A stretch of DNA of 64,000 nt, taken from the NCBI RefSeq assembly GCF_030389965.1, contig NZ_CP128399.1, forward strand, positions 310,001 through 374,000. The letters are read 5' to 3'. Shown here piece after piece: positions 25,151-63,838 of the stretch (position 1 is the stretch's first letter; the number at the start of each line of letters is the position of its first letter). This DNA comes from Candidatus Chlorohelix allophototropha. Lineage in GTDB: Bacteria; Chloroflexota; Chloroflexia; Chloroheliales; Chloroheliaceae. The translations under genes were made by a program, and so were the position numbers. Below the pieces are notes generated by a model. That model searched no databases and was not told where the DNA came from. It saw only the letters and a list, made by a program, of their open reading frames with translations.

Positions 25151-27112
25151 TTACTTTTTCACGCCACCTATACGGTAGGTGAAGTATTCCGGGTCGGTAA
25201 GGTCGGTTCGGAAGGCGCTATTTCCACTGGATAGGAGGTTGCGCAGATATGCCCGGCTGAAAGGTCGCTCGATATTGACCAGCGGATACAGGTCATTCAA
25301 AGATGCACGCAGCAAATCCGCTTGCTTTACGCCCACAAGTTCAAAGGCGTTAGCCACCAGAAAGTCGGTTTTCTTGCGGTCTGATTCTTCGAGACGTTTC
25401 TGGTTATCAAGTTTGCTGAAGCGTTCGGGCGTAAGAATTTCGTTCTCATTTACCTGGCATTCAAAACCAATGGTTCGGTAAACGAACTTCTGCCGTCTCT
25501 CATCGTAAAACAACAGACGACGTTCTTGTTCTTGGCTACTAACCTCGTACTCAATTATAAAGTGATTAGTGCGAATGCCCTGAGTTACCAGCAATTTTGC
25601 ACCCGGTATCAGGTTGTTAGCATAGAAGTCTTCCAACCCGGCAATCCACCCGCCGCGAGTACCACTTGGAAAGTGCAACTCGGCAGTGTAGGTAAATTCC
25701 AGTTGGGGCGCTTCAAGGCGCAGAATGACCAACTTCTGTTCTTCTAATAAACCGGACGGGAATAAACTACGGGCGTTTAAGTCATAGGGCAGCAAACCAT
25801 TTTCGTACTCGTAAAAAGTAATGGTATGCTCCCATTGTTTGCGTCCTTTTACGGTAGTTAGAACAATCGGGTCATTTAAGTTTGTATCTTCGAGGAACTT
25901 ATAGTCTAACCCGATTTCGGATGCCTTGCGTTTGCCTGGACCAAGGGCGTTCATACCCGGTGCAGTCCAAATGCGATCGTCTTCCGCGCCAACAAACTCG
26001 AAATCTTTCTTTTCGCGAGAAAGGCGGAAGTTTAAGGAGAAGCGTTTCGCTTCGTAATCCTGATCATTATTGCGTTTGTTAAAGACATCCGTCAATATAG
26101 CGGTGTCGGTAACAGGCCCGCCAACTTCATTCATATAATCGCGAATGCGGCGGAAATCCCCTTTGGTCAACCTTTCGGTTTGATCTTCGAGGAACCAATC
26201 ATTGGCAAAGTTGATAAAGCGCAAATCCTGATTCAAGCTGGTAGCCAAAGCAGAAGAGAAATAGTCACCATATGTATCCAGAATTTCACTGGCAGATTTG
26301 CTCAAATCGACTTCAACGCCTTCGTCCAGCGTCACAATAACAGGTCCTGCTGGCGCAGCAACCGGTTTAGGCGCGGCTACAACAGGTTCAGCGACAGGAG
26401 GCTTGGCTTCAATCGGTTTAGGTGCGGCTACAACAGGCTCAACGACAGGAGGCTTGGCTTCAATCGGCTTAGGTGCGGCTACAACAGGCTCAACGACAGG
26501 AGGCTTGGCTTCAATCGGTTTAGGCGCGGCTACAACAGGCTCAACGACAGGAGGCTTGGCTTCAATCGGTTTAGGCGCGGCTACAACAGGCTCTTTTGCT
26601 GCAATTTTCTGCTCGGCATTGGCTGTTTTTGGTTCTGCCGCAAACGGTAAAGGCAGCGCAAATGTAGAAGTCGTTTCTTGGCGGGCGGGTACATCAACCG
26701 CTTTAGCATGTAATTCTTCATCAGACATAGGCACTACCGCTTTGGCTCCTTCAAAAAGGCGAGTTTTAAAGCTGTGATGGTCATATACAACCGGCCCGGG
26801 AGTAGGAGCAATCCCTAATTTAGTGGTTTTGAATGTAATTTGCCCTTCTTCGTTTTCTTCTCGTAAGAAAACGCCAGGGTTAGCGGATAGAGCTTTGTCA
26901 ATAATGGGCGCTAGCGCATCAATGTTGTCAAGCCCCTTATATTTTTCATCGGCAAAAAATTGAGCCAGATTCTCAAGAGACTGGCGGATATTGGCGCGGG
27001 CGGACATAGTCACACCTTGCATTCGCATCAGCGCAAAAACTTCCTGAGCAAGGCTTTGTTCTTCGGGAGTACCTGCGAGATCCAATTTGGGCGGCTGATA
27101 TAGCTGTGCCAT
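25151..27112 (-). CDS. Large protein with Pro-rich 17-residue repeats, unknown
   Basis: 653 residues, with no signal peptide or membrane helix. Residues 1-165 form a mostly helical acidic region. Residues about 172-250 are four to five copies of a 17-residue unit like 'EPVVAAPKPIEAKPPVV', and the remaining 400 residues look globular with many aromatic and charged residues. I do not recognise the domain. A very similar composition ('APKPVEAPKP', 'PVVEA') occurs in the protein at 53951-56359 of the csm locus, raising a possible functional link. AAGGAGAGG precedes ATG 27112. A small gene lies just upstream. Confidence 0.8.
   Translation of the reverse strand: MAQLYQPPKLDLAGTPEEQSLAQEVFALMRMQGVTMSARANIRQSLENLAQFFADEKYKGLDNIDALAPIIDKALSANPGVFLREENEEGQITFKTTKLGIAPTPGPVVYDHHSFKTRLFEGAKAVVPMSDEELHAKAVDVPARQETTSTFALPLPFAAEPKTANAEQKIAAKEPVVAAPKPIEAKPPVVEPVVAAPKPIEAKPPVVEPVVAAPKPIEAKPPVVEPVVAAPKPIEAKPPVAEPVVAAPKPVAAPAGPVIVTLDEGVEVDLSKSASEILDTYGDYFSSALATSLNQDLRFINFANDWFLEDQTERLTKGDFRRIRDYMNEVGGPVTDTAILTDVFNKRNNDQDYEAKRFSLNFRLSREKKDFEFVGAEDDRIWTAPGMNALGPGKRKASEIGLDYKFLEDTNLNDPIVLTTVKGRKQWEHTITFYEYENGLLPYDLNARSLFPSGLLEEQKLVILRLEAPQLEFTYTAELHFPSGTRGGWIAGLEDFYANNLIPGAKLLVTQGIRTNHFIIEYEVSSQEQERRLLFYDERRQKFVYRTIGFECQVNENEILTPERFSKLDNQKRLEESDRKKTDFLVANAFELVGVKQADLLRASLNDLYPLVNIERPFSRAYLRNLLSSGNSAFRTDLTDPEYFTYRIGGVKK
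26361..26595 (-). repeat. 51-bp coding tandem repeat
   Basis: Four to five nearly identical 51-base units encoding the 17-residue proline-rich repeat of the 653-residue protein. Their high identity suggests recent expansion or homogenisation. Confidence 0.85.
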
Positions 27113-28188: not shown

Positions 28189-28629
28189 TTACTTCGCTTG
28201 ATATAGTTCCAGAATTGCATTCAGAATACTTTGCGGGTCAGGCGGAGAACCTGCCAGATAAGCATCAATTTTCCTGCCTACCGATAGCTTTAAATCGGTT
28301 TCTTTAACCGATTCTGAAAGCTGGATTGGTCCAGCAACTCCATAACAACTGGCAAAGGGCGCACCGCTGATGGTATCAGAACCTAACACCAGCAATTTTA
28401 CATCCGGCGAGAGGCTTTCCACTAAACGCATGGCATGTTCAGCTGCTTTCACTGTGCCTATTCCTGTAATAACAAGTAGGTCGCATTGTTTGGGACTGGA
28501 AGTTAAATAGATACCGAAATGTCCGGCATTGTAAGGTGGCACAAAAATAGACTCAAACTCCAACTGCGTAGCGTTGGAGCCTCCAATATTGAGTGGGAAA
28601 ACTGCAACCGATAGCCTGTTTTTTTTCAT
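28189..28629 (-). CDS. NuoB/hydrogenase small-subunit homologue lacking cluster cysteines
   Basis: 146 residues from ATG 28629, which overlaps the preceding stop as ATGA; a longer frame to 28677 exists but would lie inside that gene. The fold is that of NuoB and group-4 hydrogenase small subunits: 'CDLLVITGIGTVKAAEHAMRLVE', 'KLLVLGSDTISGAPF' and 'DAYLAGSPPDPQSILNAIL'. All expected [4Fe-4S] ligands are replaced: the N-terminal CxxC by Ser18 and Thr21, the GxC motif by Asp/Ile in 'GSDTISGA', and GCPP by 'GSPP'. It therefore cannot hold the usual proximal cluster. The partner subunits are upstream. Confidence 0.8.
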   Translation of the reverse strand: MKKNRLSVAVFPLNIGGSNATQLEFESIFVPPYNAGHFGIYLTSSPKQCDLLVITGIGTVKAAEHAMRLVESLSPDVKLLVLGSDTISGAPFASCYGVAGPIQLSESVKETDLKLSVGRKIDAYLAGSPPDPQSILNAILELYQAK

Positions 28630-30014
28630 GATGCTTTCAGCGCACTCCCCAACCAATCCAACGGTAATGCCGACCATATGCCAAAAAATATCATTACAGC
28701 AATCAGCAACAAGATTATTGCGCTTGTACCCATAGGCTCGGCTTTTGTTTTTAGTCCAGGTATGCCTCGTCCCATAAACTGATTATGGAAAAATCGCAAA
28801 TAGGCAAGTAACCACAAAGTGATGGCAAGACCTCCAAGTAATGCCCAACCGATCCCCTCTTGCGCGGCACTTTGCAGAATTAGATATTTGCCCGGAAACC
28901 CACTGATTAGGGGTGCGCCCGCCAATGCCAGCATCCCGAAGCTCAATCCTACAGTTGCCACCGGCATATGCCTTCCCAACCCGCTAAGCCCCGTCATCAT
29001 CCGTTCGTAATTGCAATAGTATATTACTGCCAACGATGTGAAAATGAGCAATTGTGCCAAAGCAAAATTCGCCGCTTCAAAAACTGCTCCGCGTAACCCG
29101 GTAGTGTGGGGTGTTGCCAATCCGAATAGTACGAGGCTCAAATTTCCGCTTCCGGTATAAGCCAGCATTTTACCAAAACTGCTCTGTGCCATACCAAATA
29201 ACCCTGATAAAACTGCTCCTGACATGCCAAGCGCCATGACAGGCAAAGTCTGGCTAGTATTATTTAGCAAAAGGGTGGGATTTTGTTGTAAAAAATCTAC
29301 TAGAAATATAACTGCCGCACCGTTTATAAGTCCTAGCACCAGCCAACTTGCTAAGGCAGGAGCATCTTCAATTACTTGTGGTAGCCAAAGGTTAAAGGGG
29401 AAAACACCAAAACGCAAAGCGAATCCGGTAATTGCAAGCGCCACGATTACTTTAATCAAGCCGATTTGTTGTGGGTCGAGGCGAACTCGCTCCAAAAAAA
29501 CCTGTGCCACAAACAAAAGCAAGCCAAATAGCACCGTGACTATCAAGTAACGTACCGCGCTTTTAACCACCCGTACAAAGCGTTCTTCGTCTTCTGCACC
29601 TACATCCACAACTGAAATAATGCTAAAAAACTCGGCGGCTACAAAGCAAAGGGTTACTACAAATACGTTATTAATAAAAAGCGCTGCATTAATTGTGCCG
29701 CAAACTGTGAGTGTTACCGGAGCATAACGTCCACTTTTCAGGTTATCGGTAAGATACGCTACCAGCAGGCTGATGCTCGCTAGGATAAAGAGGAATGTTA
29801 AAAATAGTTGGGCTATAGGAGTGAAGAAGAAAGCATTATCAGCGTTTGTCGGGTTTTCAATCCACACCATTACAGTACTTGCCACTAATCCGGCTACCGC
29901 TATAGTCACTGCTACTTTATAGCTCCAGCGATATTTTTCAGCCGGAAATAATGCCTCAATCAGCACTAGAAACAGTGTAGCTGCAAAAGGTAGTACGATA
30001 ACCGTAAAAGGCAC
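28626..30014 (-). CDS. NuoN/HyfF-like antiporter-type membrane subunit
   Basis: 462 residues, about 13-14 membrane helices, of the Mrp/NuoL-M-N family that forms proton- or sodium-conducting channels. The conserved TM5 Glu is in 'FVAAEFFSIISVV'. The central helix carries 'FALRFGVFPFNLWLPQVIEDAPA', with Arg near the position of the usual Lys, and another Lys is in 'SSFGKMLAYTGSGN'. It starts with GTG 30014 directly after the previous stop. It is one of three channel-type subunits in this operon. Confidence 0.85.
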   Translation of the reverse strand: MPFTVIVLPFAATLFLVLIEALFPAEKYRWSYKVAVTIAVAGLVASTVMVWIENPTNADNAFFFTPIAQLFLTFLFILASISLLVAYLTDNLKSGRYAPVTLTVCGTINAALFINNVFVVTLCFVAAEFFSIISVVDVGAEDEERFVRVVKSAVRYLIVTVLFGLLLFVAQVFLERVRLDPQQIGLIKVIVALAITGFALRFGVFPFNLWLPQVIEDAPALASWLVLGLINGAAVIFLVDFLQQNPTLLLNNTSQTLPVMALGMSGAVLSGLFGMAQSSFGKMLAYTGSGNLSLVLFGLATPHTTGLRGAVFEAANFALAQLLIFTSLAVIYYCNYERMMTGLSGLGRHMPVATVGLSFGMLALAGAPLISGFPGKYLILQSAAQEGIGWALLGGLAITLWLLAYLRFFHNQFMGRGIPGLKTKAEPMGTSAIILLLIAVMIFFGIWSALPLDWLGSALKAS

Positions 30015-30776
30015 TTATTTGACCGCCTTTCTTCCGGCTGTGAAAGCATCACTCAGGTTTAGCGTTTTAAGTTTATTATAGAAAAGTATGGCAAGGTATG
30101 AAATCAGAAGCGCCAGCAAAATGGTGATTGCCGCGCTAAAGCCCAACACCAAAGGATTATCACCACTGCGTAATAGTGAGTAGAGTAGGTCTGCACCGTT
30201 TAAGGCAGTTAACAAGCCAATTCCCAGTTTGAGAATATCGCTGCCCACTACCATAATGGTAACACCAATCGAGAATGTCCAGTAGAAGGCGAAATCGCCC
30301 AAAAAATTGCCGGAGAAAGGCAACAACGTTGCAAATGCATAGGTGGCTACTGCTGCAATAATGCTTGTACCTATTGGCAGCATATAATCAATATAGCGAA
30401 AACGGCTAAGTTGTTCTTTTTGCTGGCGGCGAAAAAAGCGGCGCAAACCCCCGGTTCCGGCTGCATCTTCCTCAGCCTCTTGCTGCTTCAGCCTGCGTCG
30501 CTCGATTATAATTGCATACCCGGTTAGAAAAATTATTAACGCCGCAATAACCCCCGACATAGTTTTGAGAAAAACTGCCAGTGGTATTGAACCGAGCATT
30601 ACACGCTGGGCAGTTCCATTCTGATCGTTAGCTACTACTGCCACCACAAAGTATTGAAAGACCAGCGCCGGGGTTATAATTACCCAGTCTTTGTACACTG
30701 CCAACGCTACACAGGATGCTACCAGTAGCCCTATATAGAAAATATAATTACCAGCGGTAAGTGTCAGAAAATCCAC
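30015..30776 (-). CDS. NuoK/HyfE-like membrane subunit
   Basis: 253 residues with about six membrane helices and a basic cytoplasmic loop ('RRLKQQEAEEDAAG', residues 96-110). The C-terminal half resembles NuoK and HyfE ('LKLGIGLLTALNGADLLYSLL'). It begins with GTG 30776, preceded by AAGGTGA, four bases after the NuoL-like stop. The family assignment is weaker than for its neighbours because HyfE-type proteins are poorly conserved. Confidence 0.65.
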   Translation of the reverse strand: MDFLTLTAGNYIFYIGLLVASCVALAVYKDWVIITPALVFQYFVVAVVANDQNGTAQRVMLGSIPLAVFLKTMSGVIAALIIFLTGYAIIIERRRLKQQEAEEDAAGTGGLRRFFRRQQKEQLSRFRYIDYMLPIGTSIIAAVATYAFATLLPFSGNFLGDFAFYWTFSIGVTIMVVGSDILKLGIGLLTALNGADLLYSLLRSGDNPLVLGFSAAITILLALLISYLAILFYNKLKTLNLSDAFTAGRKAVK

Positions 30777-30780
30777 AAAA

Positions 30781-32787
30781 TCACCTTGTTAGCAGGAAGA
30801 TAAAAAGGATTACCACCAAAGCCGCCAGCGCCGCATAAAATTTCTCGGTCATCCATTCCAGCACCCACACAATAAAACCTAGAATTTTAAGACCGATTCC
30901 ACCAAACCAACCTCCCAAAAAGCCGGTATCGAATATGCGTATTATATAGCGGGCAGTTTGCTGGAAAGAGCTAAAATAATCATTAATGCTCAGGCGAGGT
31001 GGGATTTCACCACGCGGGGCGGTAGGTTTGATGGCTTCCGTGCCGATTTTGAAAAAGTCATCATCAAACCCGGCAGGAATGCTTTCCTTGTAAATTTTCA
31101 GGCTCTTTTTTTTGCTCTCGCGTCGGCGTTGCGCTTCTTCTTCTTCCGCCCCAAAAAGTAAACCTCCCTGATAGGCAGGGGAGGCATGTACACTGCCAAA
31201 CTTGAGGTAAATTCCAAATAATACCAGTGCGCCTATTACTACTATTAGCCCCAACCATCCGGTTGAAATAAAATTAGCGTTTACTGTGGGTGTCGTTTCT
31301 GCGCTCATCTTGGTTGGGAGTTGCTCTACCCAACCAGAAGCTAGAGATGGAGAAAAACCGCTTATTATCGCGAAGAGTCCGAAAACGCTCGCCATTCCCG
31401 GTGGTATCCATGCTACGAGATTGCGCCCATCCACCGTCTGTCTTTCTACGGTCAGAAAGGTTATCAGCCCATTTGAAAGCCCAATTGCCAGTATCATCAA
31501 GCCAATCAACGCTACCAATAAGTAAAAGCCATAGCCCTGTGTTGCTAGATTCTCCAGAGTGGTATAGCGCGAAATATAGGCAGGAGTGAGCGGTAAACCC
31601 ACCGCTACTGCCATTCCAAGCAAATAAAGCGCTATCAATGCGCCTCGGTAGCGGGGTGAACGTTCTAACGGTTTGGGAGTTTCTCGTCCTTTTTTCAACA
31701 AAGGCGTATTTTCAATTTGGAGCAAATCTCCGCATAAAAACAGGATTGGAACCGATAAGCTAAGGGCGAAAAATTGCCATGCCGCAGCGTTGAACTGTTT
31801 TAGACCTAGCGCAATTATCACAAAACCAAACTGGGCGGAAGCCGCATAAGCTGCTTTGCCTATCAGGTCAGCTTCTTTGGCTACCATCCAACCGCAAGCC
31901 AATACAGAAATAGCTCCTACGGGTAATAATAACGGTGAGGCTGCTTTAAATAAGTCTAATCTGTCACCGGCTATGCTATTCAACCGTGCCGGTAAATAGA
32001 GCGCTAACGGTAAGATACCACCTGCCATTAGCAGTGCAAATGCGCCTCCCGGCAAGTTTTTAAGGGAACCAGACCAAGCTTGGAAGGGGAATTGCGCGGT
32101 TTTAATCATCGCCCCGACCCATACCAGTACAAAGAAAAGTGTTTCGATGGAGGACGGTGAGATTGCAGTATATTGGGTGATGCCACCGTTGCGTGAAACT
32201 ATCACCAATAAAGGCGCAAGAATAACAAACCCACCCGCAACGCTGACAACATAGGCATAGAAACTGGAACGCGAGGAACTTGCCCCACGCAAACCCGGTC
32301 CTGCCAGCAAATAGAGCCATAAGCCTAAAGCTTCTAGCCAACCGTATAACCAAATGAGGTCAGAAGAATAGAAAGCAGCTAAGGCTGAACCTTCTACCAG
32401 AAATAGGAGACCATATAGTCTGCCGCCGGTTATTGCTTCGCCTTCTTCGGCGGAAGGTTGCCGAGCTACTAGATAGATGATAACCAAGAAGCCCAAAATC
32501 GCCAGTGGAAGGGTGAAGAAGTAGGAGAGTATATCGGCGCGAAAGGCAAATTGTACTTTTGCTTCCGGCAGGGGCGACCAGCTAAACAATGTAGCGGAGG
32601 GATTGCCAGAAGCGACTCCAAAACCAAGCGCTATTTGCCCTGCCAGTGTAACCATACTAACCAATACCGCCAGCGAGGCAAGCGCGGCTTGTTCTGTTTC
32701 AAAAAGCCAGCCGAAGAAGAAGAAAGCAACGCCTACTATGAGCGGTAAAATGATGCTTATAGGTAACAAAATGTCAAAGGGATTCAA
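30781..32787 (-). CDS. NuoL/HyfB-like antiporter-type membrane subunit
   Basis: 668 residues, about 15-16 membrane helices. Family hallmarks are the TM5 Glu in 'YGWLEALGLWLYLL', the central Lys motif 'GAMIKTAQFPFQAWSGSL' and 'KEADLIGKAAYAASAQFGF'. The C-terminus has a polar stretch and a final helix, like the piston-helix end of NuoL but shorter. The start is TTG 32787 with AAAGG six bases before it. It would couple the soluble subunits to ion pumping. Confidence 0.87.
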   Translation of the reverse strand: MNPFDILLPISIILPLIVGVAFFFFGWLFETEQAALASLAVLVSMVTLAGQIALGFGVASGNPSATLFSWSPLPEAKVQFAFRADILSYFFTLPLAILGFLVIIYLVARQPSAEEGEAITGGRLYGLLFLVEGSALAAFYSSDLIWLYGWLEALGLWLYLLAGPGLRGASSSRSSFYAYVVSVAGGFVILAPLLVIVSRNGGITQYTAISPSSIETLFFVLVWVGAMIKTAQFPFQAWSGSLKNLPGGAFALLMAGGILPLALYLPARLNSIAGDRLDLFKAASPLLLPVGAISVLACGWMVAKEADLIGKAAYAASAQFGFVIIALGLKQFNAAAWQFFALSLSVPILFLCGDLLQIENTPLLKKGRETPKPLERSPRYRGALIALYLLGMAVAVGLPLTPAYISRYTTLENLATQGYGFYLLVALIGLMILAIGLSNGLITFLTVERQTVDGRNLVAWIPPGMASVFGLFAIISGFSPSLASGWVEQLPTKMSAETTPTVNANFISTGWLGLIVVIGALVLFGIYLKFGSVHASPAYQGGLLFGAEEEEAQRRRESKKKSLKIYKESIPAGFDDDFFKIGTEAIKPTAPRGEIPPRLSINDYFSSFQQTARYIIRIFDTGFLGGWFGGIGLKILGFIVWVLEWMTEKFYAALAALVVILFIFLLTR

Positions 32788-32790
32788 GTG

Positions 32791-33870
32791 TTACCTTTCT
32801 CCACATGCCATGCAATAATCCAGCGATACAAGCAATGCTCCCGCATCCTCAACGTCCTGACCGAGCAACGAGAAGGGTAAAGCAGGCAGGTTACACATTG
32901 TAGGGGGGCGTAGCTTTAGCCTTGCTATACAGCCTTTCTCATCCGAAGCAACATAACAAAAAAGTGCGCCTCTCGGTGATTCTACCAGAGAATACACTTC
33001 TTTGTCGGGGGGGAAAGCTGCGGGTAGAAGCTGTTCATCCTTCAGGTTGCCTTCTGGCATTTTAAGAAGTGCTTGTCCTGCTAGGTTAAGACTTTCTAGA
33101 GCTTCTAGCAAGCGTACTACCAGCCGCGCATAAAGACTACCACTGTTCTGAGTTACTACTCGGAAATCAAGCTCGCCATATGCAGCGTAAGGTTCTGATC
33201 GGCGGATGTCATCAGGAATATCACTGGCACGCGCGACAGGACCAACCAACCCGTATTCATCAGCCAGTTCTGCTGATATTATTCCGATATATTCGGTGCG
33301 GTGTTCGAGTTGGTGGTTTTCCAGCAATTGGCTAACCGATTCATACACATTCTTACGTAAACGCTCAACCGCGGCTTGAAATTCCATCGGTAATGGTAAC
33401 GTGCGCATGATTCCACCGGGGATTGTGAAGGTATCATGTATGCGGTTGCCGGAAGCAGCCATTAACTGGCGCACTCCTTCGGCTTCTTCCTCAAGACGGC
33501 TGGCAATCAGGCGTTTTCCAAGCATTCGGAGGGTACGTGCAGAATTGGCAAGATGGCTGGCGGCGCGTTCGAGTTCTGCCATTACGGTGCGGATATAGCT
33601 GGCGCGAAGTGGGGGATTAAGATCGGCGAGCTTTTCAAGGGCTAATGTTACTGCCAAAGTATTGGCATAAGAGCATTTTCCGCAAATTTGAGCAACCACG
33701 CCGGGCAATTGATGCGGCAAAAGGTGAGTCAATAAACCCTCAACCCCACGATGGTTAAAGCCAAGCTCAATTTCGACCTTTTCTATTTTAGTTCCGTGTA
33801 TTTCCAGCTTATAACAAACAGGTTCATCTAGCGCCGGATGCCACGGACCAATAGGTAACAGGTAGGGCAT
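32791..33870 (-). CDS. Group-4 [NiFe]-hydrogenase-like large subunit (NuoD homologue)
   Basis: 359 residues. 'PIGPWHPALDEP' and 'ELGFNHRGVEGLL' place it with NuoD and group-4 hydrogenase large subunits. Unlike NuoD it keeps both metal-binding pairs: Cys63/Cys66 in 'AQICGKCSYAN' and Cys353/Cys356 in the final 'DYCMACGER'. The first motif is altered from ERxCGxCxxxH, with Ala-Gln replacing Glu-Arg and Asn70 replacing His, and Tyr replaces Pro in the second. Whether NiFe(CN)2CO is inserted is open. No hydrogenase maturation gene is in the window. GAGGA precedes ATG 33870. Confidence 0.85.
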   Translation of the reverse strand: MPYLLPIGPWHPALDEPVCYKLEIHGTKIEKVEIELGFNHRGVEGLLTHLLPHQLPGVVAQICGKCSYANTLAVTLALEKLADLNPPLRASYIRTVMAELERAASHLANSARTLRMLGKRLIASRLEEEAEGVRQLMAASGNRIHDTFTIPGGIMRTLPLPMEFQAAVERLRKNVYESVSQLLENHQLEHRTEYIGIISAELADEYGLVGPVARASDIPDDIRRSEPYAAYGELDFRVVTQNSGSLYARLVVRLLEALESLNLAGQALLKMPEGNLKDEQLLPAAFPPDKEVYSLVESPRGALFCYVASDEKGCIARLKLRPPTMCNLPALPFSLLGQDVEDAGALLVSLDYCMACGER

Positions 33871-53950: not shown

Positions 53951-56359
53951 ATGACGCAGGATGTAAAAAATCTGGGCGATGCCGGATTGCAAGGTATTCA
54001 ACTACCTACCAGTATTTACATAGGAAAAAATGTAGTTCGAAGGCATGTGCTGGAGTTTTACAAACTTGCGGCAGCCCATAAGCTTCTAGCGCAAGGCGCT
54101 CAAGTTCTAGCAGTATTTGACTGTGTGGTACTGGAACAGCATGGTGGTCGTCTTGGCTCTTTTACCCTGCATGATTACGCGGTACTTACCACTACTAACC
54201 TCATTACATGGGGTAGGGGTCAGAACCGAGACCTAGTTGACAGGTTTGAGTGGTCGGATGTGGTTCTTGAAAAATTCGGAAGACGTAGCCCTCTCGAAGG
54301 CATGGTTAAAGTTTCAAATCGAACTCGCTCGGCAGTTTCAAAACGAAGAATAGCAGTTCGTACCAAAAACGAGAATGTTGACGAACCTATTCCTCAATTT
54401 GAAGGTGCTGACAAAGAAACCGGAATAACCCTGTATCTAGACTTGATGCCGTTTGATGATGTACGCACTTGTGCTAGCATGATTTATTTCCTAAGCAATA
54501 AAGGTGGTGAAACACCGGGTATTGACGCCTTTAATGCAAAATTCAAGTCGGAGTTGGCGGAATCCACCGAGCGTTTGACTACTATTGCCAATGCAATGAA
54601 GTCATTCTATGTCCAGCAAGCTAACGGCGTTTGGATAGAAAAAGGTTATACCGAAGAAACGGAAATGCTCGAAAGATTATCCGCTAGTGCAGCAAGCAAG
54701 GAAGAGTCTAACAAAAATAAGGATTCCAAATTACGTAGAGGCTATGTTTCTCCTTATAAGTTGGGGAAGGGTGGTGTTGCTCCAAAAACGCGTACGCCCG
54801 TAGCTACCCCAAAGGTTGCAGCTTTACCTAAAGTGACATCGGTTAGTAAGACTACCAGTAGTGCAGATGAGGACTGGTTTTATTCAGATTTTGGCAAGCT
54901 TGATAAAAAAGAGAGTAGCCAGCCAGTAGCCAGTGCTATAAGCACGCCAGCGCCAAAACCAGCACCAACCCCTCGTGCTGCTACCCCGGTTCGCTCAGCT
55001 AAACCGGCAGTAAGACCAACTCCTGCGCCTAAAGTTGCAAAGGTAAAGGAAGAAAAGCCAGTAGTATCAAAGAATGAAAGAACTGTCGCAATGCCATTTG
55101 GTGTATCACTCGGTATGGGTGCACTTAATCTTTTCACGTTCAGTCGAATCATTCGGGGGTTATGGCTTGACCCACGCACTTTAGGCTTACGAATATCGGG
55201 CATTAGCGGTAATTCTGCCTTGCTTATGGATTTATTTGGTACGGTTGCCACTGATGCCGATGCCCGTCAAAATGCGATTAATCGTCTGCGTAGCAACATT
55301 GATAATGGTCCAATCGCAAAGAATGTTATCTTGCATTATACGATTTATCCCTTCCTGAAGCCGGTGTTGGATGCTGTTGCTTCCCCGGAAATAGATCGGG
55401 TTATTCGTAAGGTTAAGGTACGGGCTGTTGAACAAGTTGCTGCTCCGGTTAAAAACCCTGTAGAAAGCAAGCCAATTGCAACAACTGCCAAAGTTCCGGT
55501 AGCAAAGCCGGTAGAAGCGCCAAAGCCAGTTACTCCTGTGCCAGTGGTTGAGGCTGTAAAGCCAGTAGAGGCGCCGAAACCAGCAGAAGCGCCAAAGCCA
55601 GTTACTCCTGCTCCGGTGGTTGAAGCAGCCAAGAAGGTAGAGCCACCAAAACCAGTGGAAGCTCCGAAGCCAGTTACTCCTGTGCCAGTGGTTGAAGCTG
55701 TAAAGCCAGTAGAGGCGCCGAAACCAGCAGAAGCTCCGAAGCCAGTTACTCCTGCTCTGGTGGTTGAAGCAACCAAGAAGGTAGAGCCACCAAAACCAGC
55801 AGAAGCTCCAAAGCCCGTTGCATCCGCTCCGACCGTAGCAGCCGTAAAACCGGTAGAAGCCCCGAAGCCAGCGGAAGCTCCAAAGCCAGTTACTCCTGCT
55901 CCGGTGGTTGAAGCAGCCAAGAAGGTAGAGCCACCAAAACCAGCAGAAGCGCCAAAGCCAGTTACCCCGGCTCCGGTGGTTGAGGCTATCAAGAAGGTAG
56001 AGCCACCAAAGCCAGCGGAAGCGCCAAAGCCTGTAACGCCCGCTCCGACCGTAGCGTTTGTAAAGCCGGTGGAAGCTCCGAAGCCAATAACCTCTTCTCC
56101 GGTGGTTGATGCTGCAAAAAAAGCAATGGAAGCTAAACCAAATGAAGCGACTAGTCCGGCTGCTAAAACGCCAGAGAAACCAAAAGTTGAGGAGAAGTTG
56201 CCAGTACAGCAACCTCCAAAAGTAGATGCTGCTGGTATTGAAGGGACAGACGCAACTACAAAAATAAATATTTCTGCCCCTAAAGTAACCGACCCGACTG
56301 CTTCGCTTGGTAAAGAAGACGAGAAGCCACCTGAACCAAGTAAGCTAGATAAAATTTAG
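53951..56359 (+). CDS. csmA-linked protein B: PH-like N-domain plus Pro/Lys-rich repeats
   Basis: 802 residues. The N-terminal domain (about 15-240) matches protein A: 'LHDYAVLTTTNLITWGRGQ' aligns with 'LSDFILITNTRVTLWMRDQ'. A conserved-looking segment at about 380-490 ('GVSLGMGALNLFTFSRIIRG') resembles a helical structural core. Residues about 519-720 are about nine copies of a 24-residue unit like 'VVEAVKPVEAPKPAEAPKPV', giving a long extended rod, and the end is acidic. AAGGAG precedes ATG 53951. It ends the operon before a strong terminator. Function not recognised; a scaffold on the chlorosome surface is a reasonable hypothesis. Confidence 0.76.
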   Translation: MTQDVKNLGDAGLQGIQLPTSIYIGKNVVRRHVLEFYKLAAAHKLLAQGAQVLAVFDCVVLEQHGGRLGSFTLHDYAVLTTTNLITWGRGQNRDLVDRFEWSDVVLEKFGRRSPLEGMVKVSNRTRSAVSKRRIAVRTKNENVDEPIPQFEGADKETGITLYLDLMPFDDVRTCASMIYFLSNKGGETPGIDAFNAKFKSELAESTERLTTIANAMKSFYVQQANGVWIEKGYTEETEMLERLSASAASKEESNKNKDSKLRRGYVSPYKLGKGGVAPKTRTPVATPKVAALPKVTSVSKTTSSADEDWFYSDFGKLDKKESSQPVASAISTPAPKPAPTPRAATPVRSAKPAVRPTPAPKVAKVKEEKPVVSKNERTVAMPFGVSLGMGALNLFTFSRIIRGLWLDPRTLGLRISGISGNSALLMDLFGTVATDADARQNAINRLRSNIDNGPIAKNVILHYTIYPFLKPVLDAVASPEIDRVIRKVKVRAVEQVAAPVKNPVESKPIATTAKVPVAKPVEAPKPVTPVPVVEAVKPVEAPKPAEAPKPVTPAPVVEAAKKVEPPKPVEAPKPVTPVPVVEAVKPVEAPKPAEAPKPVTPALVVEATKKVEPPKPAEAPKPVASAPTVAAVKPVEAPKPAEAPKPVTPAPVVEAAKKVEPPKPAEAPKPVTPAPVVEAIKKVEPPKPAEAPKPVTPAPTVAFVKPVEAPKPITSSPVVDAAKKAMEAKPNEATSPAAKTPEKPKVEEKLPVQQPPKVDAAGIEGTDATTKINISAPKVTDPTASLGKEDEKPPEPSKLDKI
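55507..56110 (+). repeat. 72-bp coding tandem repeat array
   Basis: About nine degenerate 72-base units encoding the 24-residue Pro/Lys/Glu/Ala repeat of protein B. Two alternating variants are visible, one with 'VKPVEAPKP' and one with 'KKVEPPKP', suggesting duplication of a two-unit block. Confidence 0.88.
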
Positions 56360-62727: not shown

Positions 62728-63330
62728 ATGGGTAATGAGCTTTATCGTGTTGAAGATTTTTTCACTATAAATGCAACTCGTCCCGGTGATGCTCAATCAA
62801 TTATGAGCGCCTCTCCGGTGGGGGGTATGGTCACTACTACCGTTGATAACTTGGCAAATTGGGGGCGAAAATCCTCTTTATGGCCTGCTCTATTTGGGTT
62901 GGCTTGTTGCGCTATCGAAATGATGGCGACAGGGGGCGCTAGGTTTGATATGGCACGTTTTGGTTCGGAAGTATTCCGAGCTTCCCCACGACAAGCTGAT
63001 TTGATGATTGTGGCGGGGCGTGTTTCTGCTAAGATGGCTCCTGCCGTTCGCCAAATTTACGAACAGATGCCCGGTCCTAAATGGGTAATTGCGATGGGAG
63101 CATGCGCCAGTTGTGGTGGCGTATTCAACAATTATGCTATTGTACAGGGCGTAGATTTGATAGTGCCGGTAGATGTTTATGTGGCAGGTTGTCCACCTAA
63201 TCCCGAAGCGCTATTGGAAGGCTTTCAAATTTTACAGAAAAAAATCATGGCAGGCGTGCCCAATCCACCTGATCCGATGAGTTATGCCCCGGAGGTAGTG
63301 AGTGACCCCAACTTCGGACGAACCCGCTAA
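62728..63330 (+). CDS. nuoB: NADH-quinone oxidoreductase subunit B
   Basis: 200 residues. It carries cluster N2, with all ligands present: the double Cys in '[10 protein letters not shown]', one in '[10 protein letters not shown]' and one in '[11 protein letters not shown]'. It starts three bases after nuoA and overlaps nuoC. It makes a useful internal reference for the cysteine-less homologue at 28189-28629. Confidence 0.97.
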
Positions 63331-63838
63331 CCCGGTTCAAAATGAGGAAAATACTCTCAAGGCAGAGCGTTTTCCAAACGTAAAACGCAGCGAAATGCGA
63401 GCGGCGGATGGTACGCCCACTTTTATTGTACCTGCCGATGAATTGCTGGAAGTATTGCAGTATCTGCGCGATGAAGCCCGCTTTACTATGCTGGAAGATG
63501 TCACGGCGGTAGATTGGAAAAAAGAGCCGCGCTTCCAGCTAGTTTATAATTTATTGTCGCTAGAACGAGCTTCCGTTATCCGAATAAAAGTAAATTTGCC
63601 GGGAGAGAATCCAATCGTATCCAGCGTCACTGCCTTATTTCCGGGCGCTAACTGGTACGAGCGCGAGGTTTTCGACCTATTCGGTATTACTTTTACCGAG
63701 CATCCGGACTTGCGGCGTATAGAAATGCCGGATGATTGGCAAGGTCACCCACTTCGCAAAGATTATCCCATTACGGGACCGCGCCGCCCGGTTATGCCTG
63801 CTAATCAGTTCAGACCGGTCGGCAGAAGTAATTCATAA
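63302..63838 (+). CDS. nuoC: NADH-quinone oxidoreductase subunit C
   Basis: 178 residues of the 30-kDa subunit. Signature '[23 protein letters not shown]' and 'GHPLRKDYP' are present. The start is GTG 63302, overlapping the end of nuoB by 29 bases. It is separate from nuoD, unlike the fused NuoCD of enterobacteria. Confidence 0.95.

Follow-up and report, generated by a model that had tools for sequence, protein, structure and literature searches.

Four pocket cysteines retained beside a clusterless small subunit: a putative non-hydrogenase, Ehr-like complex in the order of Candidatus Chlorohelix allophototropha

What becomes of the four cysteines of a [NiFe] hydrogenase-like pocket when the small subunit next to them has lost its cluster? 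The question is raised by an operon (28189-33870) of Candidatus Chlorohelix allophototropha, found in a window of 64,000 nucleotides, the whole stretch of DNA analysed here (contig NZ_CP128399.1, hereafter C1, positions 310,001 to 374,000). Five tightly packed genes encode, in this order, a large subunit (L), a NuoL-like, a HyfE-like and a HyfF-like membrane subunit, and a small subunit (S; Table 1); these would be five core subunits of a complex that sits in the membrane and belongs to the hydrogenase-4/complex I superfamily.

Table 1. Position of the operon genes in the window and of the distant NuoH-like gene on contig C1
Feature	Position	Strand	Size	Basis or remark
L, HycE/MbhL/NuoD-like, EhrL-like large subunit	32791..33870	minus	359 aa	ORF, Pfam, alignments, fold
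NuoL/HyfB-like antiporter subunit	30781..32787	minus	668 aa	PF00361
HyfE-like small membrane subunit	30015..30776	minus	253 aa	63-66% identity in 4 other genomes of the order
HyfF/NuoN-like antiporter subunit	28626..30014	minus	462 aa	PF00361
S, NuoB/MbhJ-like small subunit	28189..28629	minus		ligand positions S/T/D/S; Pfam, alignment, predicted fold
NuoH-like gene (fourth NuoH homologue)	G000:C1:41491-42555			HycF-like gene next to it; about 300 kb from the window operon

L starts with MPYLLPIGPWHP and ends with ...LDYCMACGER. It matches PF00346 (E 6.3e-48) and PF00374 (E 1.4e-07), which places it in the NuoD/HycE/MbhL family, and it misses the NCBIfam NuoD cut-off (221.9 of 360 bits). The closest solved structures are MbhL (6cfw_L) and HycE (7z0s_E), each aligned over nearly the whole protein; the structure predicted for L (mean pLDDT 88.6), with 35 sequences of the window and the loci as input, superposes on FHL HycE 7z0s_E with a Z of 46.7 and 2.0 Å over 356 residues. 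Both cysteine pairs announced by a preliminary description of L are present in the translated ORF, as C63-G-K-C66 and C353-M-A-C356, and in all five genomes of the order. Where group 4 hydrogenases carry (Glu)-Arg and His, L has A60-Q61 and N70, and in addition Lys65 and Cys305. Many other residues of the true hydrogenase pocket are retained, among them D15/E16, R300, R321 and D351: the beta1-beta2 loop acid E16 and the three others are intact in the window and in 5/5 genomes, as are S105/H106, R214 and E256. The quinone Tyr of complex I is absent from L, the alignment giving Cys-Gly at what would be the corresponding position.

After C356 the protein terminates with GER, aligned with the C-termini of 6cfw_L (...DPCLSCTDR) and HycE (DPCYSCTDR). 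This mature-type end, three residues past C356, is shared by 5/5 genomes of the order, and the C-terminal extension cut by a HycI-type protease, a feature not universal in group 4 [NiFe] hydrogenases, is absent. The preliminary description was thus correct about the end of the protein, but the argument that it drew about a maturation protease is neutral, since group-4-like large subunits with full motifs and no extension occur (e.g. L071 and L185), and the two HycI-type proteases of the genome (C2:19743 and C1:2270394) are each near other hydrogenase large-subunit matches.

The order is represented by five genomes, that of the window and four others, all four having an L orthologue 61-66% identical to the window L. 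We compared these five proteins with two sets of large subunits, 24 from a sister clade in the Chloroflexia and 68 other ones spread over many phyla; nine duplicate loci were excluded from the counts for L and S, and one of the two scan patterns favoured [RQ]ICG-type sequences, which biases the survey. All four cysteines are found in 5/5, 14/24 and 67/68 of these large subunits respectively. The conservation of the cysteines in orthologues, on which the preliminary description made its reading depend, therefore holds throughout the order and only in part in the sister clade. The Arg of RxCG is kept in 0/5, 19/24 and 68/68, and the His of the first motif in 0/5, 24/24 and 67/68; the acid at position 16 in 5/5, 1/24 and 67/68, and R321 in 5/5, 0/24 and 66/68. 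The loss of Arg and His noted beforehand is thereby borne out, with A60-Q61 and N70 in their place, while the Glu listed along with them is no firm hydrogenase feature (51/68 of the other large subunits). Lys65 and Cys305, in 5/5 genomes of the order, occur neither in the sister clade nor in the others.

The RxCGxCxxxH first motif of group 4 is thus replaced by QICGKCSYAN in the whole order, where Cys63, Cys66, Cys353, Cys356, Cys305, Gln61, Lys65 and Asn70 are invariant, a full set encountered in no other survey row. The longest invariant run of the alignment, AQICGKCSYAN (11 residues), is no statistical proof when taken alone: when columns were shuffled 10000 times, 1650 of the shuffles gave a run this long. 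Low dN/dS values among the three closer genomes, 0.064-0.070 (L) and 0.067-0.103 (S), show that both evolve under constraint; these values and the orthologues in 5/5 genomes led us to reject a sequencing error or a pseudogene. The four-cysteine L is no isolated decay, being fixed across the order.

A tree of 62 rows groups the five L proteins as one clade (support 100/100) that is sister to 21 Chloroflexia rows, the joint clade of 26 rows having a support of 99/93; a common ancestry of L in the order and in the sister clade is thus supported. As the patterns for Arg, His, acid 16 and R321 show, the pocket was modified along different lines in these two groups. Operons of the sister clade have the genes in the same order, L, NuoL-like, HyfE-like, HyfF-like, and often continue with a ligand-bearing S, a membrane protein of 270 aa that belongs to no known family, and an ABC-type ATPase (L055:14491-16426, L058:2304-4661 and others); no S was found in the flanks of several of these loci. 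We considered whether the 270-aa protein that follows S in Chloroflexales operons could be a NuoH, and a profile comparison with the NuoH-like family of the order gave a probability of 0.5% (E 0.12), so that this homology is unsupported.

S is a NuoB/MbhJ homologue by its sequence and by its predicted fold, which, computed on the longer ORF, superposes on 6cfw_J (Z 15.2, 2.4 Å, 127 residues). The longest ORF would place its start at 28677, but the true start is probably the ATG at 28629, which overlaps the stop of the gene before it. At the four ligand positions of the proximal [4Fe-4S] cluster the window S has Ser, Thr, Asp and Ser: it is clusterless, as had been stated from the window alone, and no S of the order has more than one ligand cysteine. 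S is encoded in all five genomes; two of them have it inside the operon, the other three at an unlinked place. A loss of S from genus g225 had been suspected from its absence from the operon, and was discarded once S was located elsewhere in all three genomes.

Outside the order, 71/72 paired small subunits retain all four cluster ligands (for 20 large subunits there was no S within the stretch examined), and none of the 72 survey loci with both subunits scored pairs a four-cysteine L with incomplete S ligands. In a Chloroflexota sample of 30 scored small-subunit loci, the flanks of the 11 with a clusterless S (L229 and ten more) were taken: L has lost all four cysteines in 10 and retained them in one, L236. 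The combination, qualified as unusual in the preliminary description, is indeed so: fixed in 5/5 genomes of the order, it is met at 0/72 survey loci elsewhere and in this one further case. It is rare, not unique, and joint loss is the usual course. As all L cysteines are gone from 10/11 clusterless-S loci, their retention in the order is informative and needs a reason. L236 (G029:C53) is a separate case, with a four-cysteine L that keeps Glu, Arg and His (ERVCGACSLSH, ELCYSCLDR) and an S with 1/4 ligands. L229 (G403:C78:39456-41744) is a second complex of genome G403, one of the order, in which a near-clusterless S (GSCNAAE, GDG, GDPP) goes with an L that lacks the four cysteines.

Concerning the membrane subunits, the NuoL-like protein has the antiporter Glu (TM5 type) and Lys (TM7 type), both conserved in the five aligned genomes. 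The HyfF/NuoN-like protein has orthologues in all four other genomes, one interrupted by a contig end. The 253-aa protein has no match in Pfam and is called HyfE-like from its position and composition. The operon contains no NuoH-like and no ferredoxin-like subunit. Elsewhere in the window, a nuoB-like gene with complex I type cysteines (62728-63330) and a nuoC-like gene open a second complex I operon (62728-63838 onward), nuoD being just past the window end (C1:374319). The window also holds two tandem repeat arrays, 26359-26593 and 55513-56047, with units of 51 and 72 bases; the former sits within the ORF 25151-27112 and yields protein repeats rich in Pro, Ala and Lys.

The missing subunits were looked for in the genome, which amounts to 6.09 Mb in five contigs (C1, 2,961,161 bases, holding the window, and C2, 2,453,413 bases); the closed genome of strain L227-S17 is described as two chromosomes of 2.96 and 2.45 Mb and three smaller replicons (PMC10972752). 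The window's genome encodes four NuoD-type large subunits, among them two of complex I and a group-4-like one at C1:1774753-1775826, and four NuoH homologues. By place or count, two of the latter go to the complex I sets and one to the other group-4-like locus; the fourth is left over. The gene after it encodes a HycF-like protein that has two [4Fe-4S] motifs and, at its C-terminus, a CxxC...CxxC quartet. The pair is present in 5/5 genomes of the order with all these HycF-like cysteines conserved, including the eight of the [4Fe-4S] motifs. This unassigned NuoH/NuoI pair at C1:41 kb, in all five genomes, and the tally of four NuoH for four NuoD-type subunits count in favour of its belonging to the window complex, whose missing subunits it probably supplies, as counting and co-occurrence in five related genomes suggest. 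The pair stands alone between unrelated genes (likewise L076:10489-11556 and L076:9781-10485, minus strand).

The other group-4-like locus (L017:6136-8776, G000:C1 about 1774-1777 kb) encodes an L fused to NuoC, whose motifs read ERNCAACTVSS (Ala instead of Gly, Ser instead of His) and ELCYSCLDR; it has four cysteines, no His and no C-terminal extension; the adjoining S is fused to ferredoxin domains and keeps all cluster ligands. Three further NiFe large subunits are encoded, one full-length on C2 and two on C1. HypA and HypD are present; HypD is needed for the Fe(CN)2CO unit. HypD was found in 4/5 genomes of the order and not in G403, which keeps the cysteine motif; this absence is soft, G403 being a draft (94% complete, 560 contigs).

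To which known complexes does this one compare? Group 4 and Ehr complexes have reportedly been classified by Marreiros and co-workers. The likeness is with the Ehr (energy-converting hydrogenase-related) complexes, which have group-4-hydrogenase-like L and S, HyfE-like and NuoL/N-like membrane subunits, no assigned function and no expected [NiFe] chemistry (PMC10284858, PMC6349859, PMC7894505). The Ehr trait of having L, S, HyfE-like and antiporter-like genes together in an operon is present in the window, S being unlinked in three of the five genomes. In the first two of these papers, however, the Ehr L is described as related to group 4 and devoid of CxxC motifs, whereas the L of the order keeps both pairs in 5/5 genomes while its S has lost the cluster. 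Escherichia coli FHL-1 (HycE/HycG/HycF) shares the fold of L, the beta1-beta2 loop acids, the canopy Arg and Asp and the HycF-like cysteine quartet, which in HycF binds a single metal according to PMC9474812; the window complex differs by the lack of first-motif Arg and His, proximal cluster, NuoC domain on L and C-terminal extension. Unlike in FHL-1, no formate dehydrogenase was recognised beside the window operon or the NuoH/HycF-like locus. The sulfane reductase MBS of Pyrococcus furiosus is, like the complex of the order, a group 4 descendant altered both in the NiFe pocket and in the proximal cluster, but in the opposite manner: according to PMC7684303, it keeps a catalytic [4Fe-4S] cluster with three cysteines, and two of the four L cysteines are gone. 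The window S has no ligands for a three-Cys catalytic cluster of MbsJ type. Complex I, of the same superfamily and fold in NuoD/NuoB, is also the reverse, since it lost the cysteines and kept cluster N2; neither the N2 cysteines of NuoB nor the quinone-site Tyr of NuoD is found in the window L and S. Finally the clusterless complexes L230-L235, L238 and L239, which we assume to be of a Dehalococcoidia type, resemble that of the order by the Asp/Asn replacing cluster cysteines in S, and differ by an L with a longer N-terminal part and none of the four cysteines (SGDES...LSYAG). On their defining features, the window complex falls outside both the group 4 hydrogenases and the Ehr complexes, yet it is of the same kind. 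Literature searches on hydrogenase-related complexes of Chloroflexus/Roseiflexus and on Dehalococcoides Hyc-type complexes and CxxC motifs gave no match, and none of the Ehr papers retrieved had a title on the order; the word hydrogenase is absent from the main text of the Chlorohelix genome paper (PMC10972752).

The explanation that we prefer, with a confidence slightly short of an even chance, is that of a non-hydrogenase, Ehr-like complex, putatively translocating ions, whose four-cysteine pocket was kept as a putative non-NiFe Cys4 metal site. In the order the complex would no longer be a hydrogenase; its remaining subunits, NuoH-like and HycF-like, would likely come from the locus 300 kb away, and its membrane arm is predicted to be still capable of moving ions. 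The proximal cluster being gone, the usual relay would no longer deliver electrons to the old NiFe position. The two CxxC loops would most likely hold one tetrathiolate metal, Fe or Zn, in the manner of rubredoxin or a zinc knuckle, and this putative metal may fix, and perhaps signal from, the loop region through which the peripheral and membrane arms are coupled. Fe(CN)2CO chemistry is made less likely by the missing Arg and His, and G403, with the same motif and no detected HypD, was also counted for a non-NiFe site. Two observations count against this preferred explanation: the intact D15/E16, R300, R321 and D351 are odd for a purely structural site, and the eight [4Fe-4S] cysteines of the HycF-like partner, kept in 5/5 genomes, suggest that electrons still flow.

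The latter point brings in the main rival, rather unlikely in our view, in which an Fe-S cluster or a redox-active Fe centre, bound by the four L cysteines, replaces the proximal cluster, with electrons coming directly from the HycF-like subunit to drive ion pumping with quinone or another acceptor. The conserved [4Fe-4S] motifs and quartet of that subunit, the latter resembling the single-metal site of HycF (PMC9474812), agree with it, as does the invariance of Cys305 along with the four cysteines. But S is still encoded in 5/5 genomes, so L may not sit nearer to the HycF-like clusters; in FHL the relay steps are under 14 Å (same source), and the gap left by one absent link would probably be too wide for electrons to cross quickly, barring a rearrangement of the complex. 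The Cys-Gly found where we presume the quinone Tyr to be is a further difficulty. With the same low probability, the pocket could have been re-tooled as a new redox or metal-sensing centre, a putative Fe or Fe-S site in L of Cys4 type, or Cys5 should Cys305 take part. This site, fed from the HycF-like ferredoxin subunit or isolated from it, would drive or gate the translocation of ions by a complex I relative that lacks cluster N2.

A [NiFe] hydrogenase, or a Hyp-matured Ni site with an unusual electron route, appears more doubtful still. It would account for the four ligands kept with E16, R300, R321 and D351 in 5/5 genomes, and HypA and HypD are at hand; however, the Arg and His present in nearly all other large subunits are lost throughout the order, S is clusterless in every genome, HypD was not found in draft G403, and the Hyp proteins have other clients in the window's genome, the three further NiFe large subunits. 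We hold as equally improbable that the ex-hydrogenase is a passive relic, a mere scaffold for an ion channel, with cysteines persisting by slow decay or forming disulfides. The piecemeal loss in the Chloroflexia sister clade, where ten large subunits lack the complete set and several flanks have no S, goes in this direction. Against it, dN/dS is about 0.07 among the closer genomes, the motif is invariant though L differs from that of the window at 34-39% of residues, and the Dehalococcoidia-type complexes lose the cysteines along with the cluster (10/11 clusterless-S loci). Both the NiFe site and the relic are less likely than the Cys4 Fe/Zn site.

In proposals on the origin of complex I, as given in the MBS paper (PMC7684303), the four NiFe cysteines are lost stepwise while the proximal cluster stays. 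The order shows the reverse of this path: the cluster was lost, and the cysteines were retained and fixed. Were the pocket a re-tooled redox or sensing centre, the superfamily would count an energy-coupling module that uses none of the chemistries described to date, those of hydrogen, quinone and sulfane. If the site binds a metal without relay, the coupling role of the pocket would be separated from its electron chemistry, and the order would offer a natural experiment on whether the membrane arm depends at all on electrons passing through the L/S module.
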